Origin: Thermosynechococcus sp. HN-54
Lineage (GTDB): Bacteria > Cyanobacteriota > Cyanobacteriia > Thermosynechococcales > Thermosynechococcaceae
Direction of reading: 5' to 3'
Assembly: GCF_023650955.1 (NCBI RefSeq)
Contig: NZ_CP098039.1
Location: forward strand, 1,054,001-1,118,000
Length of the DNA: 64,000 nt
Part shown: piece after piece, positions 27,911 through 35,063 of the stretch
Layout: each line of letters opens with the position of its first letter
How positions within the stretch are numbered: position 1 is the first letter of the stretch
Notes under the pieces: generated by a model
What the model was told of the DNA's origin: nothing
Databases searched by the model: none
Seen by the model: the letters and a program-made list of their open reading frames with translations, nothing else
Program-made: the position numbers and the translations under genes

Positions 27911-29236
27911 ATGGCAGTTTCCTATCAGAGTCGCTTTTTTAGCTTTTGGCGACAGCAATGGCACCGGTGGCAGCAACAGTGGCAACGCCAAAAATGGCAG
28001 GTTGAAAGCACCCTCAGTGGCACACTTCAGGTCATTGGCGCGATTCTGGCACAGTTTTGGCAGCGGGGACTCTCCCAACTCATGGGCACGGTCTCCCAAA
28101 TGCGTCAACGCCTCCTGCCGAAACCCACAGTGGCACCCCCTGCGGATGAGGCCTTGTTAAGTGTGATGTCTGCCCTCTCCCTGACAGCAGGAGAGGATAA
28201 ATCTTTGGCGGTGGCGATCGCCCCCATTGCCCGTCCACTTCCTTGGTGGCAGCGCTGGATTACTACTGTGCAACGCTGGTTTCAACCCCAGTCCAAGACG
28301 TTACCGCCACAGAACGCACCTTTGGCACAGCGACAACCCTTTTACCTTGCTTGCGATCGCACCGCAAAATCCCTCTTGATCGTAGATGAAGCGGCTCATC
28401 CCTTGAAAGTTTTCACTACCGCAGAACAGCAGCAAATTGAGCAACGCATTGCCTATGCCTTGGCAGTGTACTATCAGCACGTTCGGCAGTGGTATCGGCG
28501 ACGGCATCACTGGTTCTGGGGTTGGCAGGAGCGATTCTTCAAAGCAGGCGTAAAACCGCAGTCCTGTTTGGTAGGGACATTCTTAGGGCAACTTCAGTTA
28601 ACCGGAACAAGGGAAGGGGATTTAGCCTTACCTTCAGTGTCTCCCCTAGCCACTGCCCTCCGGTGGTTGCGATCGCGCCTTCCCTTCGGTGGCAAAAACA
28701 CGCTTTCCCAAGTGCGGGTACAGGGGATTGCCACCCTCCTAGAAACCCAGCAGATGGTGCTCATTGGCAGCGATAATACGATTCTTTACACCCTCAGTCC
28801 TGCTCAACAGGCTCAGGTGCTGGCTTGGATCGAACGCCATCTCAACCCCTGCAAGCTGCCCTCCCGAGACTGGCTGAGTCAACTCTCCTACTGGCTAGGG
28901 GGATTCCAACCCGCTGCGGTGGCAGCCGTGAATTCACCGCTATTGGCGGCCATGGATCCTTTACCGGTCTTTTCCCCCGTGGACACCCTGCTCAGTTTAG
29001 GGAGTGCGGCGGCGCCCTTAGCTCATTCGTCCCCATCAGAAACTGCGGCCACCAGTGTCCATCCGAATCCAGAGCAGTTGATTCTCGATGTGGATGCTGC
29101 CCTCATTGGCTATGAACTCCATTGGTTTGAACGGTTGCTGCTGTGGTGCGATCGCCTGTTTTTGTGGATTGAGGAACATCTGATTCGCCTAGGTCGTTGG
29201 CTCTTGCAGCAGTGGCAGCGCTGGCGGCACTTCTAA
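27911..29236 (+). CDS. Hypothetical protein rich in Trp and Gln
   Basis: A 441-residue protein I do not recognise. It opens with a basic, aromatic helix (RFFSFWRQQWHRWQQQWQRQKWQ) and is unusually rich in W, Q and R throughout. No signal peptide, catalytic motif or clear transmembrane helix is seen, though amphipathic helices at both ends could lie on a membrane (LLLWCDRLFLWIEEHLIRLGRWLLQQWQRW at the C-terminus, split by charges). The middle has a possible beta-rich core (FYLACDRTAKSLLIVDEA; LLETQQMVLIGSDNTILYTL). Codon use and HIP1 content match the neighbours, so it is native. It overlaps the convergent protease gene by four bases. Confidence 0.65.
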   Translation: MAVSYQSRFFSFWRQQWHRWQQQWQRQKWQVESTLSGTLQVIGAILAQFWQRGLSQLMGTVSQMRQRLLPKPTVAPPADEALLSVMSALSLTAGEDKSLAVAIAPIARPLPWWQRWITTVQRWFQPQSKTLPPQNAPLAQRQPFYLACDRTAKSLLIVDEAAHPLKVFTTAEQQQIEQRIAYALAVYYQHVRQWYRRRHHWFWGWQERFFKAGVKPQSCLVGTFLGQLQLTGTREGDLALPSVSPLATALRWLRSRLPFGGKNTLSQVRVQGIATLLETQQMVLIGSDNTILYTLSPAQQAQVLAWIERHLNPCKLPSRDWLSQLSYWLGGFQPAAVAAVNSPLLAAMDPLPVFSPVDTLLSLGSAAAPLAHSSPSETAATSVHPNPEQLILDVDAALIGYELHWFERLLLWCDRLFLWIEEHLIRLGRWLLQQWQRWRHF

Positions 29237-30801
29237 CGGTTCTCAATCTGGCGAATTGCCTCCATCATTTGGTTGTAGGACTGCATGTTCCCCTGTTGGC
29301 GGTAGAGTTCAGCCGCTTGCCGCAGATCGGGGAGGCTGCCTTTCAAATTCTCTTCTAAAAGATATGTCACTCCTCGCAAGGCAAAGGGCATCGGATCTTT
29401 CGGGATGAGTTGGGTCAAGGCAGTCCAACTGGGGCGACTCAGGGCATAGTCTCCCATCATGAAGGCAGCAACTCCCCGTAGCAAATGATAGTCGGTACTC
29501 TTGGGATTGGCAGCAATGAGACGGTCAAACACAGGGATACTGCGGCGAAAATCACCACTGAGAAAGAGCGCCAATGCCTGAATCATCTGTAAATTCCTGT
29601 TGTTGGGACTGAGGGCAAGGGCGCGATCGCTATCCGCAACAGCAGTACCAAAGTTGCCGAGGAGCAAATTCAAAAAGCTACTGATGCCATAGGCTTCGGT
29701 GTACTGGGGATTGAGGGTGATCGCTCTGGCAATGTCTTGCTGAATCGTGCCGGGGCGTTCAGCCATATTGCGGACAAACGTATCCAGCAGTGGGGTGGGT
29801 GGGTTGGGGGGAAAGGCATCCTTGAGAATGGGGTTGCCCTGGGTGAGACGACTCAAGTACTTGGTGCCCAGTTCTTCGCCGAGCTGATTAAAGTCTTGGT
29901 TCGGCACACGGGCAAACATTTGCGCCACGGCGCGTCCGAGATAGGCTTCACTGTAGTTGGGATTGAGGGCGATCGCCCGCGTATAGTTATCAATGGCGGC
30001 GGTAAAATTTTTGCGTTGGAAGTACTCCTCAGCGGCAAGGAAATAGTCGGCTGCCTTCAAGGGAGTCCGGGCAGGCAGAGCCGTGGTTTCCCGCGACGGT
30101 GTGGCCAAACTCAAGTAGGTATTGATGGGAATGCCGAGATTAAAACCGCGTTTCACAAAGACGGTACTGGAGCCACCGCCTTCCTGCACAAGGGTGGAGG
30201 CAATATCGGCACTGCCATGCACCCCAATCAAACGCCCTTGTTCATCGAGGACAGGGCCGCCACTCATTCCCGGCAGTGTGGGATTGCTATAGACCAAGGC
30301 ATAGCCATCTTGAATCGGACGCGAGGCATTGGCCGTCAGCCGTCCCTCAGTAAATTGATAAATGCCACCCAAAACTGAGGCCTCCTGAGCAGGAAAACCC
30401 GCCACAAAAACGGGCATGCCCTCCACCGCTTCTACAGAGTTTCCCAGTCTGGCAAGGGTATACTCTCGGCTACTTTCAATTTCCAGCGTTGCCAAATCAA
30501 CACCGGGTAAGCGACGAACTGAGTTAGGGCGAATGGCATAGCGCTGACCATCAACGGTTTTCACAGTGTATTGGCCTGCTTTTTCCACCACATGGTAGGC
30601 AGTGAGGATGGTATAGGTGTTGCCATTGCGCTGTAGCAGAATACCAGAGCCGTGGCTGCTGCCACCTTCAATGAGGACGGTGATAGTTTTGGCAATGCGG
30701 GCCACTTCTGTGACGGTTACCGCTGGGCTAGGGAGGGATTGAACAATGTGGACGGTGGCGATCGCCATTCCCACTAACGGCCAACTGTGCCAGCGCCCCA
30801 T
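29233..30801 (-). CDS. Trypsin-like serine protease with TPR repeats
   Basis: A 522-residue protein. An N-terminal hydrophobic segment (LVGMAIATVHIVQSLPSPAVT) suggests export. Residues about 35-215 form an S1/HtrA-like protease with the triad His in LTAYHVVEK, Asp in GVDLATLEI and Ser in GMSGGPVLDE. At least four TPR units follow (AIDNYTRAIALNPNYSEAYLGRA; AVADSDRALALSPNNRNLQ; AFMMGDYALSRP). There is no PDZ domain, unlike HtrA/Deg. Such protease-TPR proteins are frequent in cyanobacteria and are probably periplasmic; substrates are unknown. Confidence 0.88.
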   Translation of the reverse strand: MGRWHSWPLVGMAIATVHIVQSLPSPAVTVTEVARIAKTITVLIEGGSSHGSGILLQRNGNTYTILTAYHVVEKAGQYTVKTVDGQRYAIRPNSVRRLPGVDLATLEIESSREYTLARLGNSVEAVEGMPVFVAGFPAQEASVLGGIYQFTEGRLTANASRPIQDGYALVYSNPTLPGMSGGPVLDEQGRLIGVHGSADIASTLVQEGGGSSTVFVKRGFNLGIPINTYLSLATPSRETTALPARTPLKAADYFLAAEEYFQRKNFTAAIDNYTRAIALNPNYSEAYLGRAVAQMFARVPNQDFNQLGEELGTKYLSRLTQGNPILKDAFPPNPPTPLLDTFVRNMAERPGTIQQDIARAITLNPQYTEAYGISSFLNLLLGNFGTAVADSDRALALSPNNRNLQMIQALALFLSGDFRRSIPVFDRLIAANPKSTDYHLLRGVAAFMMGDYALSRPSWTALTQLIPKDPMPFALRGVTYLLEENLKGSLPDLRQAAELYRQQGNMQSYNQMMEAIRQIENR

Positions 30802-30855: not shown

Positions 30856-31737
30856 CTAGGCAGAGCCAAGGGACAGTTGAACCGCCGTAATCGCCTCCAC
30901 CAAGGGCGATCGCAAGGCAGCGATATACTCTGGCCAGCCAATGAGGATCGGTTGCTGATGGGCAAGGGTCTGTCCCTGTAAGCCTGCGGCATCAAAGCGC
31001 AAGGGATTTCCCTGCAAGTCGGTGCACACCAAACCTGCTGCTGTTGCTAAAGCCAAGGGGGCTGTGGTGTCCCAGAGCTTGACCCGTTGGTTCAAGTAGA
31101 GGTACAGTCCTGCCCGCCCCAAAATCACTTCAATCACCTTGAGGCCAAAACTGCCCAAAAAGCGAAATTGGACTTGGGGCAAGACCCGATGAATTGCATC
31201 GCCGTAGGTGCGGTAGTCGCGATAGCCAATCATGATCGGGCAATGGTCTTCACTAGGGGAAGGCGGGCAAACGGGTAAGAGGGGAACAGGGGGCCCACCA
31301 CTGCTCATCTGAAAGAGTCCCCAATCTTTACCGCCGTAGTAGAGATGATCCAGATTGGGGGCATAGATCCAACCCGCCACCGGACTGTAGTGCTCCAGCA
31401 GACCCACCATGAGAGCGTAGCCTTGGCGATGGTGAATCAGATCGTCAGTGCCATCGAGGGGATCAATCAGCCAGTAGCGATTTTTCGGTTCTTGAAAGAC
31501 CGCTTGGGAGTCAGCATTTTCCTCGCTGATGATGCCATCCTCAGGAAACCAAGCGCGAAATTTCTGACTTAGCAGCCGATCCAAGAAGCGATCAATACTG
31601 GTGGCAAAGTCTTGGCGTCCCTTTTCAATCACCTCAAAGGGTTGCTGTGCGAGTTGCCGTGCCCGCTGCCCCGCTTGGCGCAGGAGTTGATTGATCTGCC
31701 AGATTTGGCTAGAAGTCAGGGGGGGAGAAGTCGTCAT
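30856..31737 (-). CDS. Inositol monophosphatase family / CysQ-like phosphatase
   Basis: A 293-residue member of the IMPase superfamily. Metal-binding residues appear in GIISEENAD and WLIDPLDGTDDLIHHRQGYAL; the C-terminal WDTTAPLALATAAGL closes the site. The ISEE plus DPLDGT arrangement and C-terminal layout are closer to the 3'(2'),5'-bisphosphate nucleotidase (CysQ) branch than the gene at 2264-3115, so 3'-phosphoadenosine 5'-phosphate is a possible substrate; this is an inference. It is the last gene of a three-gene overlapping operon, its start sharing ATGA with the stop of the GIY-YIG gene. Confidence 0.83.
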   Translation of the reverse strand: MTTSPPLTSSQIWQINQLLRQAGQRARQLAQQPFEVIEKGRQDFATSIDRFLDRLLSQKFRAWFPEDGIISEENADSQAVFQEPKNRYWLIDPLDGTDDLIHHRQGYALMVGLLEHYSPVAGWIYAPNLDHLYYGGKDWGLFQMSSGGPPVPLLPVCPPSPSEDHCPIMIGYRDYRTYGDAIHRVLPQVQFRFLGSFGLKVIEVILGRAGLYLYLNQRVKLWDTTAPLALATAAGLVCTDLQGNPLRFDAAGLQGQTLAHQQPILIGWPEYIAALRSPLVEAITAVQLSLGSA

Positions 31738-32267
31738 TTGAGGTCCAGCCGTCCACTTTCCTTTAGTTTGGCGTTAAAAACCAGCGGCTCCTGTAGCGAT
31801 CGCTGCCGTAGGTGCTCCAGAATCTCGGCCTCAACCCGCCGTGCCACCTGTTTTAGCAGTTTTGGTTGGGTCAATGGATCAGCACTGAGCCATGCAGTGC
31901 GTTCTGCTGCCGTCATGCGCTCTTTGACATCAATGGCAGTTTCCCACTGGGGGCGATCGCGATCGTTGCCGAGGGGTACAGTTCCCAATTCCGCTAGCCA
32001 CTGTTGTTTTACGGCTTCTAGCCACGGGCGATCGGGGCGTTCAATGGCGATCGCCTTATAGCCACGACACTGCTGGGGACAGCGCACAAGGTGTTGGAGC
32101 AAACTCAGTCGCACATCCCGCGAATAGCCAATGTACTGCACGCTGCCAGTGGCATCAAAAATGGCATAGAGACCGATCGCCCCCTTGAGATCAGGTGCCA
32201 CCCGCCCTGAACCATCAATGTAGGGATGGAAGGGCAATTCAGCCAAAGTCGGCGCAGGAAGGCTCAT
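31734..32267 (-). CDS. GIY-YIG nuclease-fold protein
   Basis: A 177-residue protein with a GIY-YIG domain at about residues 25-95: GLYAIFDATGSVQYIGYSRDVR, with the downstream Arg and a Glu in KQQWLAELG. The second GIY-like element is YIG, the first is GLY, both acceptable for the family. The rest is helical and lacks a known DNA-binding module. Cyanobacteria carry such stand-alone GIY-YIG proteins; their role is unproved. Its start overlaps the Cache-HAMP gene and its end overlaps the CysQ-like gene, each by four bases, so it is translated in a coupled chain. Confidence 0.85.
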   Translation of the reverse strand: MSLPAPTLAELPFHPYIDGSGRVAPDLKGAIGLYAIFDATGSVQYIGYSRDVRLSLLQHLVRCPQQCRGYKAIAIERPDRPWLEAVKQQWLAELGTVPLGNDRDRPQWETAIDVKERMTAAERTAWLSADPLTQPKLLKQVARRVEAEILEHLRQRSLQEPLVFNAKLKESGRLDLK

Positions 32268-33718
32268 GTCGGCAGTGGTGGATCATGTGGATCATTTTCA
32301 CGTTCGTCATCCTCAGTATGCCGTATCTGTGGATGTGTAGCAGTAGGGGGGGATTTGGTGTGGGCCCGTTGGCGCAGTTGTTGTGCCCGTTGACGCAGTT
32401 CTTGGAAGTAGTCAGTGCTGGTAATTTCGGCAACGGATTTTTTTCGTTTTTCTTGGTCAATTTCGATTTTTAGCTCACTCAGTTCCTCCTCCAGTTGATC
32501 TTGGCGCTGCTCTACCGCCTGTGCCATCTCCAAAAAGACTTGAGCCAGTTCTGCCATGTCATCACTCCCTTGGGCATATTGCCTGAGAACTCTGGGATCA
32601 AACTGGTCAAACTGGTCATGCTTGAGGGCGTGGACAGCACTGACAAGGGCACGAATCGGCTTAGTAATTGAACGAGCCACAATCAGGGAAATGAGAATGA
32701 CCCCAACACCAACCAAGAGAAGACTGAAGAAACCTTGGGTAGCCAACCGCTCTAAGGGCGCTAGAAACTGGCGCAACCGTACACTGACCACAACAACGCC
32801 CTGATGGCGGGTCAGGGGCGCATAGGCATAGATATAGTCGGCGTCCCCTTGGGAAGAAGGACTGGTGAGGAGAGCACCGACCTGTTTTGATTTGGCCTTG
32901 AGAAAGACATTGCGCAGGGTATAGTGAACCTCTGCCACTGGGGAAATGGGTTGAGGCAGTGTCAAGAGAAAATAATGGTCGCGAATCTTGGGGGGGAGTG
33001 GATCAATGCTATGAAGATTCAGGTGGGGATTCGTCGTGCTGAGAATCAGACCGTGATCATCAATCAGAAAAGATTCACCGTGAATATCGGGCACTAGGTA
33101 GGTCACGATGTCTTTGACTGCGGTCGCTTGTAGAGGCAATAGAACCGCCCCTAATCGTTCATTATTGCTATCAACAATTGTTTGGAAGACAATAAAGAGG
33201 GGGCGCTGGGCGATCGCACTATTGATTTTGACCCGAGAAATAAAGTAATTTGCTGTTGCCGACTGCTGCCAGAGGGGGGTGTTCTTGTAGTCTAGGCCTA
33301 GACGAGTGCCTCGGGTTCCTGCGATCGCTTGGCCATCACGGTTGAGGAGAATCACCTGATAATAGGCTGGGTTCAGGTTCCTGACATCCTCGAGAAAGTT
33401 GGTCATCGTCGCTTGCTCGATGGCGCTATGGCTACCACTCCTGAGGAAATACCGTACGTCACTGTCATTGGCTACCAAGAGAGCATCATTGAGGGCATCC
33501 TGAAAAAGGTGATCAAGGGAACGGGCTTTGCCGATCGCTAGCAGTTGCAGGGCATTAATTTCTAAGCGCTTCATCATCTCAGCGCTTTCAGTTTGGTTGT
33601 AGAGCACCACCATCCCCATCGGTAATAGGGAAATTAGCAGCATCACGAGCAGCAGCCGCCCCGAAATGGACCACAAAAGCCTTGACCAACGCTGTCGCCA
33701 CCCAAGCATGGAATCCAC
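32264..33718 (-). CDS. Cache-HAMP transmembrane receptor without an output domain
   Basis: A 484-residue protein. A first transmembrane helix (LLLVMLLISLLPMGMVVLY, near residue 28) is followed by an extracytoplasmic double-Cache-type sensor (AYYQVILLNRDGQAIAGTRG; GESFLIDDHGLILSTTNPHLNL), a second helix (FFSLLLVGVGVILISLIVA, near residue 330), a HAMP domain (SITKPIRALVSAVHALKHDQFD) and a coiled coil (QRQDQLEEELSELKIEIDQEKRKK). It then ends in a short Thr/His-rich tail. No histidine kinase, GGDEF or chemoreceptor signalling domain is present, so it must work through a partner or be a modified receptor. It is first in an operon with the GIY-YIG and CysQ-like genes and diverges from rodA. Confidence 0.82.
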   Translation of the reverse strand: MDSMLGWRQRWSRLLWSISGRLLLVMLLISLLPMGMVVLYNQTESAEMMKRLEINALQLLAIGKARSLDHLFQDALNDALLVANDSDVRYFLRSGSHSAIEQATMTNFLEDVRNLNPAYYQVILLNRDGQAIAGTRGTRLGLDYKNTPLWQQSATANYFISRVKINSAIAQRPLFIVFQTIVDSNNERLGAVLLPLQATAVKDIVTYLVPDIHGESFLIDDHGLILSTTNPHLNLHSIDPLPPKIRDHYFLLTLPQPISPVAEVHYTLRNVFLKAKSKQVGALLTSPSSQGDADYIYAYAPLTRHQGVVVVSVRLRQFLAPLERLATQGFFSLLLVGVGVILISLIVARSITKPIRALVSAVHALKHDQFDQFDPRVLRQYAQGSDDMAELAQVFLEMAQAVEQRQDQLEEELSELKIEIDQEKRKKSVAEITSTDYFQELRQRAQQLRQRAHTKSPPTATHPQIRHTEDDERENDPHDPPLPT

Positions 33719-33788: not shown

Positions 33789-35063
33789 ATGTTTTGGACA
33801 ACTCGGCTATGGCAACGCCGCTGGTCTGCTTGGCTCCACCCTTGGTGGGGGATGGATTGGCTCCTTTTAATTGCAGTATGGCTGATTACGCTGTTGGGGG
33901 CAGTGGCTATTCACAGTGCCGAGTTGCACATTGGCGAAAAGGATGGCTTCCAACATCTGGCGATCGCGGGCGTGGGGACGATTTTGCTTTTCCTACTGGC
34001 ACGGGTGCCGACATCGGTCTTTATCTCATTCCATTGGTGGGTCTATGGCCTCAGTTGTGCCCTCCTACTGGCTGTGAGCTTATTTGGTGTTGAAGCTAAC
34101 GGTGCCCAAAGTTGGCTGCCTATTGCTGGCTTTAACCTCCAGCCTTCAGAATTTGCCAAAATCTCGATCATCCTCACCCAAGCTGCCCTACTCCAGCGGG
34201 TGCCCGCCAACGGCCTCAGCGGCATTCTACGGGTGTTTGCGGCAACGGTCTTGCCCCTAGGGTTGATTTTATCGGAACCTGATCTGGGGACTTCCCTTGT
34301 GTTTGGCGCCATCACCTTGGGCATGCTCTATTGGGCCAATGCCCGTTTGGGCTGGATTGTGCTGATGCTCTCCCCTTTGGTGGCGGCGATTCTCTTTGCC
34401 CTACCACTGCCCTATGAACTGAATCTGGTGCTGTGGTTCCTATGGACATTAGGGATGGGAGTTGTGGCATGGCAAAGCCTTCCCTTGGGGTGGATTGGGG
34501 CGATCGGCGGCATTGTTCTGAATCTTTCGGGGGCAGGGTTGGGGCAATTGCTGTGGAGCGTGCTCAAGGACTATCAAAAAGACCGCCTCTTAATGTTTTT
34601 AGACCCCGATAAGGATCCCTTGGGGGCAGGCTATCACCTGATCCAATCCCGCATTGCCATTGGCGCAGGTGGACTGTGGGGGCGGGGTCTATTGCACGGT
34701 ACCCAGACACAGCTGGGGTTTATTCCCGAACAACACACTGATTTTATTTTTTCAGCCATTGGCGAAGAATTAGGCTTTTTAGGCGGCTTACTCGTTTTAG
34801 GACTATTTTGGTTGATTGGCCTGCGGTTATTGCAAATTGCCAATAGTGCCCGTGATGATTTTGGCTCGCTCCTTGCCATTGGTCTCTTTTCCATGCTGAT
34901 GTTCCAAGCGGTGGTCAATATCGGCATGACCATGAACCTATTTCCTGTGACAGGCATTCCTTTGCCCTTCCTCAGCTATGGCCGTTCTGCCCTTTTGGCA
35001 ACCTATATTGGTTTGGGCTTGGTGCAATCGGTGGCTAACCATCGCCCGCGATCGCGCTACTGA
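33789..35063 (+). CDS. rodA: Peptidoglycan glycosyltransferase RodA (SEDS family)
   Basis: A 424-residue polytopic SEDS protein that polymerises lipid II during side-wall growth. Family signatures are present: WLPIAGFNLQPSEFAKI, SEPDLGTSLVF with the essential Asp, QSRIAIGAGGLWGRGL, PEQHTDFIFSAIGEELGFLG and PVTGIPLPFLSYGRSAL. The ATG at 33789 is chosen because GAAGGA lies nine bases before it; upstream in-frame codons overlap the divergent receptor gene. Nearest homologues are RodA rather than FtsW by the shorter N-terminus, an inference. Confidence 0.9.
   Translation: MFWTTRLWQRRWSAWLHPWWGMDWLLLIAVWLITLLGAVAIHSAELHIGEKDGFQHLAIAGVGTILLFLLARVPTSVFISFHWWVYGLSCALLLAVSLFGVEANGAQSWLPIAGFNLQPSEFAKISIILTQAALLQRVPANGLSGILRVFAATVLPLGLILSEPDLGTSLVFGAITLGMLYWANARLGWIVLMLSPLVAAILFALPLPYELNLVLWFLWTLGMGVVAWQSLPLGWIGAIGGIVLNLSGAGLGQLLWSVLKDYQKDRLLMFLDPDKDPLGAGYHLIQSRIAIGAGGLWGRGLLHGTQTQLGFIPEQHTDFIFSAIGEELGFLGGLLVLGLFWLIGLRLLQIANSARDDFGSLLAIGLFSMLMFQAVVNIGMTMNLFPVTGIPLPFLSYGRSALLATYIGLGLVQSVANHRPRSRY

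Follow-up and report, generated by a model that had tools for sequence, protein, structure and literature searches.

The stretch of DNA analysed here (the window) comprises 64,000 nucleotides of Thermosynechococcus sp. HN-54, G000:C1:1054001-1118000 in a 2.7-Mb single-contig genome (G000, the own genome in what follows), and carries on its reverse strand the gene for a Cache-HAMP receptor whose possible route of signalling is the subject of this report. Genes were called by a simple longest-open-reading-frame (ORF) rule. The receptor gene overlaps one for a GIY-YIG-like protein, which in turn overlaps one for a CysQ-like phosphatase, and a divergent FtsW/RodA-family gene lies on its other side (Table 1). 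Pfam assigns dCache_1 and HAMP and finds no family above cut-off downstream of HAMP; there was no match to HisKA or HATPase_c (as in histidine kinases), to MCPsignal (chemoreceptors) or to SpoIIE (SpoIIE/PP2C, SiaA-type phosphatases), and a SiaA model reached 29.5 of 700 bits, over residues 327-430 only. A sequence-only reading had described a Cache-HAMP receptor without a catalytic output domain, and this description stands. A frameshift concealing an output domain, which had been named as a possible refutation, is ruled out, the full orthologs in G008, G002, G010 and G012 being open frames with the same tail end. The start codon is GTG, although ATG at codon 4 could plausibly serve instead, given that matches to orthologs start at residues 3 to 7. 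Among named relatives, the closest found is that of Thermosynechococcus sp. M98_K2018_005 (88% identity). The gene is under purifying selection, with a ratio of nonsynonymous to synonymous substitution rates (dN/dS) versus G008 of 0.23 for the whole protein, 0.04 for the tail and 0.50 for the last residues. An AlphaFold2 model of the monomer (two sequences) was poor, with a mean predicted local distance difference test (pLDDT) score of 35.9; the two helices at its end (386-427 and 436-452, block pLDDT about 42-60) are a hint only. Taken alone, the receptor is an ordinary Cache-HAMP protein.

When the receptor was used as query, many unrelated cyanobacterial proteins matched solely in the last 50 or so residues, and a second protein of the own genome matches the receptor tail (residues 402-457) with 52% identity. 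An alignment of 17 tails spans 43 columns, of which Leu8, Asp13, Val21 and Phe30 are invariant, with the consensus LxQQxxxLxIEIDxxKRxxQVAEITETDYFQxLxxxAxxLRxx. The protein does end past HAMP, as had been noted, but the supposed coiled coil is this conserved 43-residue element, present on many sensor types, and the tail is a distinct conserved module. Across a class-wide cyanobacterial sample (195 genomes, 109 genera) it occurs in 83 genomes and 50 genera, in up to seven copies per genome; in 102 stand-alone ORFs it lies within 20 residues of the stop codon in 79 and within 45 in 92, with a maximum of 400. A set of 97 tail proteins was formed from 106 tail ORFs by leaving out four sensor-tail-ATPase fusions, L096 (1797 residues), the broken L103, L104 and L105, the near-identical L100 and the repeat L160, and by adding the window receptor. 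Mean column identity in this set is 9%, and the six columns conserved at 90% or more all lie in the tail or in the helix leading into it. Pfam found HAMP in 60 of the 97, dCache_1 in 41, PAS in 28, response regulator in ten, HisKA in nine, CHASE2 and GAF in seven each, Tll0287-like in six, cyclic nucleotide (cNMP)-binding in two and HATPase_c in only two; among the 25 of 35 families listed for the set, GGDEF, EAL, MCP-signal and PP2C are absent. Host architectures include dCache-HAMP, PAS, GAF, CHASE2, cNMP-binding and DHp-receiver proteins, individual examples being FHA-GAF-tail, cNMP-tail, HisKA-receiver-tail and a 1797-residue Ser/Thr kinase-AAA-GAF-PAS-tail protein. The tail itself gave weak sub-cut-off Pfam matches only (HAUS2 in eight of the 17, for example), with no family covering it, and a search of the PDB with the tail profile gave no related solved chain.

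The first 60 loci fetched were picked without knowledge of any ATPase; 51 contain a tail gene and 18 of these an ATPase of about 250 residues, which recurs more often than any other neighbour if a mixed, sensor-like cluster is set aside (the member in L116 is divergent). The ATPase matches AAA_31, ParA and CbiA in Pfam, is called a 'MinD/ParA family protein' in annotated plasmid records and has archaeal MinD (PDB code 1hyq) and FlhG/FleN as its nearest solved relatives by sequence. It falls below all listed cut-offs of the curated NCBIfam models (minD_arch, 80.2 of 201.75 bits; minD_bact, 53.0 of 212.9 bits; AAA_KGGVGR domain, 76.1 of 90 bits). The P-loop H[SA][FY]RGGTGKSN, found in 79 of 86 ATPases, fits GGxGK[ST] with the catalytic lysine; in all 79 the position of the signature lysine is occupied by arginine, for which reason we call the protein MinD/ParA-like only. 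McdA (Ser) and BcsQ (Arg) likewise depart from the signature lysine, according to an excerpt of PMC9178275. Most of the ATPases carry DTDxQSP (Q type) or DTDxPSP (P type). In the libraries scanned, neither the tail (Pfam) nor the ATPase (NCBIfam) has a family of its own, and no relative of the ATPase was found in phages.

Using an ATPase threshold of E <= 1e-30, fixed before the 195 genomes were searched, the ATPase was found in 82 of them: 80 have both tail and ATPase, three the tail only, two the ATPase only and 110 neither. The phi coefficient is 0.948 for tail and ATPase; GIY-YIG gives 0.267 with the tail and 0.280 with the ATPase. Shuffling within families was restricted to the 148 genomes with a printed family, among which genomes having a match are over-represented. 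Observed concordance of tail and ATPase was 143 of 148, against a mean of 102 and a maximum of 119 in 5000 shuffles of ATPase presence; the GIY-YIG control gave 74 concordant genomes and a shuffle mean of 75. Since the observed concordance exceeds the shuffle maximum, shared ancestry at the family level does not account for the co-occurrence. Looser thresholds gave only weak, general P-loop ATPase matches in G037, G091 and G006 (best 1.6e-9) and no tail in G069, G193 or G006 (best E 0.24, in G193).

Sensor, tail and ATPase form a single ORF of 708-749 residues in four loci (L143, L144, L145 and L146), and in L143, on which Pfam was run, HisKA and a receiver precede the tail; in a fifth fusion, L147, the tail is below threshold. 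Loci from L142 on were partly picked for an ATPase with a nearby tail, and adjacency counts among them are biased. With 150 listed tail positions, at least 46 of the 132 ATPase matches (33 genomes, three fusions included) have a listed tail within 5 kb, where about one ATPase would be expected by chance according to a rough estimate from genome size. The genome G012 (locus L130), from the wider family, encodes on one strand a receptor of 451 residues, an sCache-HAMP-PAS-tail receptor of 777 residues, an ATPase of 254 residues, which overlaps the second receptor by 8 bases, and a winged-helix protein of 116 residues. The 451-residue receptor is the ortholog of the window receptor (43% identity) with the same FtsW neighbour, and for this reason the gene set appears to have been split in Thermosynechococcus. 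As for the surroundings of the five fusions, a large gene (832-863 residues in L144-L147; in L143 the contig end truncates it) lies nearby and in L144, beside the fusion, encodes a Tll0287-HAMP histidine kinase with two receivers; a gene of 738-744 residues lies near the fusion in three of the five loci and in L144 encodes a SulP-STAS-cNMP transporter.

Tail and ATPase also match in charge. Net charge past the invariant Phe of the tail averages +0.95 in 20 Q-type pairs versus -3.7 in 21 P-type pairs (Mann-Whitney, 1.9e-6), being zero or above in 15 of the former and acidic in 19 of the latter (Fisher, 2.5e-5); the test omitted fusions, ATPases without DTDx[QP]SP and pairs whose distance exceeds 3 kb, and two tails entered it twice. 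LDEFWS is a frequent ending of P-type tails. In the window receptor the tail is of the basic kind, and the ATPase of its own genome is of the Q type. A gene of a glutaminase cluster adjoins a P-type ATPase near an acidic-tail gene in L083, L091, L114, L131 and L133, its identity being confirmed by Pfam in L091, and similar-sized genes occupy that position in L172, L175, L179, L184, L186, L187, L189 and L190.

Decay of these genes was followed in 11 Thermosynechococcus genomes (G000-G010, including the own genome). In G009 the ATPase is cut to its last 29 residues, the PAS receptor lacks some 610 internal residues and 36 residues are left of the window-type receptor, while the winged-helix protein has almost its full length; all of these remnants are internal to contigs. 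G006 lacks the ATPase and the window-type receptor at loci that are likewise internal to contigs, and its winged-helix gene is truncated; the second tail receptor was not found either in this genome, which is 90% complete and in which the place of that receptor was not inspected. G001 and G003 have lost the window-type receptor alone and keep both their ATPase and the other tail receptor. The link between tail and ATPase is seen in their co-occurrence, in fusions, in gene order and in joint decay.

For 12 of 80 unfused ATPases, the adjacent gene encodes a winged-helix protein of about 100 residues. Of 39 selected winged-helix matches, small or fused, 34 have an ATPase within 500 bases; the 39 were picked by eye (frames of less than 200 or about 370-420 residues, E up to 2.5e-8), a choice that left out the truncated G006 copy and weaker matches. 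Gene order and fusion link the ATPase to the winged-helix protein. The winged helix also opens ORFs of 1030-1094 residues, with TIR and WD40 in L213 and WD40 in L210 according to Pfam, and all 15 genomes with such ORFs are ATPase-positive (Fisher, 1e-6, uncorrected for ancestry); for winged-helix ORFs of 820-1005 residues there is no association (eight of 20 genomes ATPase-positive). These sequence data suggest that the winged helix is an adaptor on the effector side. Fusions of ATPase and winged helix are found at L221:2040-3146, L222:3248-4384 and L223:3519-4625, with P-loops such as RAGTGQSN; these fused, divergent paralogs are perhaps regulatory pseudo-ATPases. The arrangement winged helix-TIR-WD40, in about 1030-1070 residues, was noted at L213:982-4188, L210:777-3878 and, by eye, L209:2945-6049.

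Searching plasmids with the ATPase gave relatives in Deinococcus at 63% identity, in Rhizobium jaguaris at 55% and in Streptomyces at 39-41%. A HAMP-like tail gene lies one gene past the Deinococcus ATPase and overlaps a second, divergent ATPase-like gene by 4 bases; next comes another HAMP-tail gene. The Rhizobium tail closes a frame of 153 codons whose stop (TGA) and the ATPase start (GTG) lie in a 4-base overlap. Four further plasmid loci are cyanobacterial, two with a tail (L167 and L168) and two without (L165 and L166). The Rhizobium locus (L163:5400-8768, plasmid pRCCGE525c) shows HAMP-PP2C, SiaB-like, STAS-like, tail and ATPase genes in succession, that is, a SiaABC-like cluster continued by the tail-ATPase pair; its first three genes were judged by eye.

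Table 1. Features of the receptor locus and of related genes in the own genome (residues are those of the receptor; positions without prefix are those of the window).
Feature	Position	Strand	Basis or remark
Receptor, 484 residues, transmembrane helix (TM) - dCache_1 - TM - HAMP - conserved C-terminal tail	32264..33718	-	Pfam, orthologs; TM helices by eye
dCache_1 sensor domain, residues 49-229	33032..33574	-	Pfam, 55.2 bits (cut-off 45)
HAMP, residues 347-403	32510..32680	-	Pfam, 25.2 bits (cut-off 25)
Tail module of 43 residues, residues 409-451; proposed output element	32366..32494	-	Tail profile, 75.4 bits, E 1e-20 in own genome
GIY-YIG-like neighbour, overlaps receptor; unsupported as signalling partner	31734..32267	-	Pfam, 15.5 bits
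Inositol_P / CysQ-like phosphatase, overlaps GIY-YIG-like gene; unsupported as signalling partner	30856..31737	-	Pfam
FtsW/RodA-family gene, divergent from receptor	33789..35063	+	Start chosen by eye (longest-ORF start 33666; 33801 also used)
Second tail receptor	G000:C1:1741988-1744318
ATPase with winged-helix protein, joint span	G000:C1:1840273-1841497
MinD/ParA-like ATPase	G000:C1:1840676-1841434	-	~0.75 Mb from receptor
Winged-helix protein, directly downstream of ATPase	G000:C1:1840276-1840539

The two 4-base overlaps in the receptor, GIY-YIG-like and CysQ-like chain are present as had been described, between the receptor stop and the GIY-YIG-like start (32264-32267) and between the GIY-YIG-like stop and the CysQ-like start (31734-31737). 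The names of the two partners hold in part: the GIY-YIG label is weak (below the Pfam cut-off of 22.6 bits), and the phosphatase clearly belongs to Inositol_P (122.8 bits) but falls below the CysQ equivalog cut-off (119.4 of 228.8 bits). The proposed check was whether relatives conserve the three-gene order, with separation of the genes as the refuting outcome, and separation is what was found: G012 carries GIY-YIG and CysQ as a pair on contig C8 but the receptor on C5, and G002 and G010 keep GIY-YIG with the receptor and have CysQ far off. In the wider family GIY-YIG and CysQ adjoin with no receptor beside them, for example in G012 (C8), G019 and G013. The receptor is complete in four of the 11 Thermosynechococcus genomes (G000, G002, G008 and G010), broken in four (G004, G005, G007 and G009) and absent from three (G001, G003 and G006), whereas GIY-YIG is intact in ten (a remnant in G006), as is CysQ (split in G005). 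In G001 and G003 the receptor is cleanly gone between FtsW and the GIY-YIG/CysQ pair. What the window receptor has in common with that of G012 is the divergent FtsW neighbour, which marks the older place of the receptor. Because the pair exists without the receptor, the receptor is lost or broken in many genomes and the neighbour shared with G012 is FtsW, the overlapping trio is most likely a secondary arrangement. In G004 (L104:6572-7144) an in-frame deletion has removed the sensor domain of the receptor, with residues 46-335 missing, and the remnant is an open frame of 221 residues that comprises the first TM, the second TM, HAMP and the tail. Next to the CysQ-like gene lies a trypsin-like protease with TPR repeats (window 29233-30801, reverse strand), which varies in the genus, large internal parts being unmatched in G008 and G007; its end overlaps by 4 bases an opposite-strand ORF of 441 residues with no Pfam match (27911-29236, forward strand).

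We consider it probable that the receptor signals through its tail to the MinD/ParA-like ATPase of Table 1, which would then act on the winged-helix protein. A ligand bound by the extracellular dCache domain would alter HAMP and the coiled coil, and the short, conserved, helical tail would relay the change to the cytosolic ATPase. The tail would probably alter the ATP-dependent dimerisation or the hydrolysis of the ATPase, as partner peptides do in other MinD/ParA ATPases; the action of partner proteins described in an excerpt of PMC10241942 suggests the likely chemistry. The next target of the ATPase may be the small winged-helix protein whose gene lies immediately downstream. The parts of this proposal that we infer are a direct contact between tail and ATPase, the direction of the signal, the ligand and the final effect. 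The wider view, to which we incline somewhat more than to its opposite, is of a general cyanobacterial route, with outliers in Deinococcus and Rhizobium, in which output-less sensors (Cache-HAMP, PAS, GAF, cNMP-binding and DHp-receiver proteins, even a Ser/Thr kinase) would share one tail that feeds an ATPase hub, and the hub would act on winged-helix adaptors, which would be free-standing or form part of TIR-WD40 effectors.

Several observations weigh against this proposal. No listed tail lies within 5 kb of 86 of the 132 ATPase matches, and in the own genome the receptor is not near the ATPase. Five of the 195 genomes are discordant, with the ATPase but no tail in G069 and G193 and the tail but no ATPase in G037, G091 and, as fragments, G009. 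No tail was found near the Streptomyces ATPase that is 41% identical. The charge match has exceptions in five of the 20 Q-type and two of the 21 P-type pairs and may stem from joint inheritance of two gene clusters; therefore, it supports pairing, not contact as such. On the effector side, the winged helix adjoins only the 12 of 80 unfused ATPases given above, and the winged-helix fusions that were read (L221, L222 and L223) are divergent ATPase paralogs with altered P-loops.

The main rival, which we regard as unlikely, is that the ATPase stands upstream of the receptors and places them on the nucleoid or membrane, with the tail as a cargo handle. MinD/ParA ATPases that place chemotaxis clusters (ParC and PpfA) are known (PMC10241942), and the basic tails resemble the positively charged partner peptides of which that paper speaks. 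However, small hosts in which Pfam finds only PAS, GAF or cNMP-binding would remain output-less once placed, 95 of the 97 tail hosts lack HATPase_c, tail and ATPase are fused in single chains and some ATPases are coupled to a winged-helix protein; signalling is favoured over positioning because single-domain sensors carry the tail and because tail-ATPase fusions exist. Those fusions, which join the tail directly to the ATPase, also speak against an indirect link, in our view more doubtful still, in which the tail binds another common component (such as a STAS-like or SiaB-like protein), with the ATPase acting in the same pathway but making no contact with the tail. STAS-like and SiaB-like genes do lie beside tail genes in L091, L123 and L137 and, by eye, in Rhizobium, and SpoIIE phosphatase and STAS genes lie near the ATPase in Deinococcus. 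Yet these STAS-like and SiaB-like families recur in three of the 60 fetched loci, while the ATPase nearly always accompanies the tail genome-wide, and the labels are weak (in L123 the DUF6272 score of the SiaB-like protein is 18.4 of 26.6 bits, and Pfam gave no match for the STAS-like protein).

That the output passes in trans, as the sequence-only reading supposed, is well supported, but not with the GIY-YIG or CysQ-like protein as its recipient, which we hold to be very improbable. The 4-base overlaps would suit such a partnership, as would the adjacency of receptor and GIY-YIG in all four Thermosynechococcus genomes with a complete receptor; against them stand the gene order in G012, G002 and G010, the loss pattern (of the seven genomes without a complete receptor, five retain both genes intact and all at least one) and the within-family control, in which tail and GIY-YIG vary independently, and on these three grounds both proteins are rejected as partners. 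Least credible of all is that the receptor is a former kinase or chemoreceptor minus its output domain, the tail being just a structural coiled coil. The receptor is indeed undergoing loss in the genus; conservation of the tail contradicts this reading, as seen in its low dN/dS versus G008 and in the recurrence of the same sequence, beyond that of a mere coiled coil, in the 102 stand-alone ORFs of many architectures, where it is nearly always terminal.

How bacterial sensors that have no recognisable output work is a long-standing puzzle. If the proposed route is correct, it would represent a new class of output beside histidine kinases, cyclases, chemoreceptors and phosphatases, and orphan receptors and orphan MinD-like ATPases would gain a function at once, in a form testable in cultured cyanobacteria; as just four of the 11 Thermosynechococcus genomes have a complete receptor, natural knock-outs exist. 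Neither the tail nor its link to a MinD-like ATPase was found in openly licensed PubMed Central papers, which is a weak absence, and as far as could be found a single tail that connects many types of sensor to a MinD/ParA-like ATPase is undescribed. The predicted inactive MinD/ParA-like domains of other conflict systems, as presented in part of PMC7159879, differ from the present case.

The window receptor shares the Cache sensor, HAMP relay and coiled coil with Cache-HAMP histidine kinases, chemoreceptors, diguanylate cyclases and SiaA-type phosphatases, but has no catalytic or MCP output and ends in the tail. The weakly labelled SiaB-like and STAS-like genes beside some tail genes recall partner switching of the SiaABC type (PP2C, kinase and STAS), whereas the window receptor has neither a PP2C domain nor such neighbours. 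ParC and PpfA likewise tie a MinD/ParA-type ATPase to sensory proteins; here, in contrast, there is no MCP domain among the families listed for the tail proteins, and the sensors are a mixture of membrane and soluble proteins, some fused to the ATPase. MinD-MinE, ParA-ParB, McdA-McdB and FlhG/FleN share with the present system a sequence-related P-loop ATPase and the proposed coupling to a short charged element of the partner. Compared with these known A/D ATPases, the signature lysine is replaced by arginine in the 79 of 86 sequences described above, and where their partners offer a positively charged, disordered N-terminus (according to an excerpt of PMC10241942), the element found here is a conserved C-terminal tail carried by many types of sensor.

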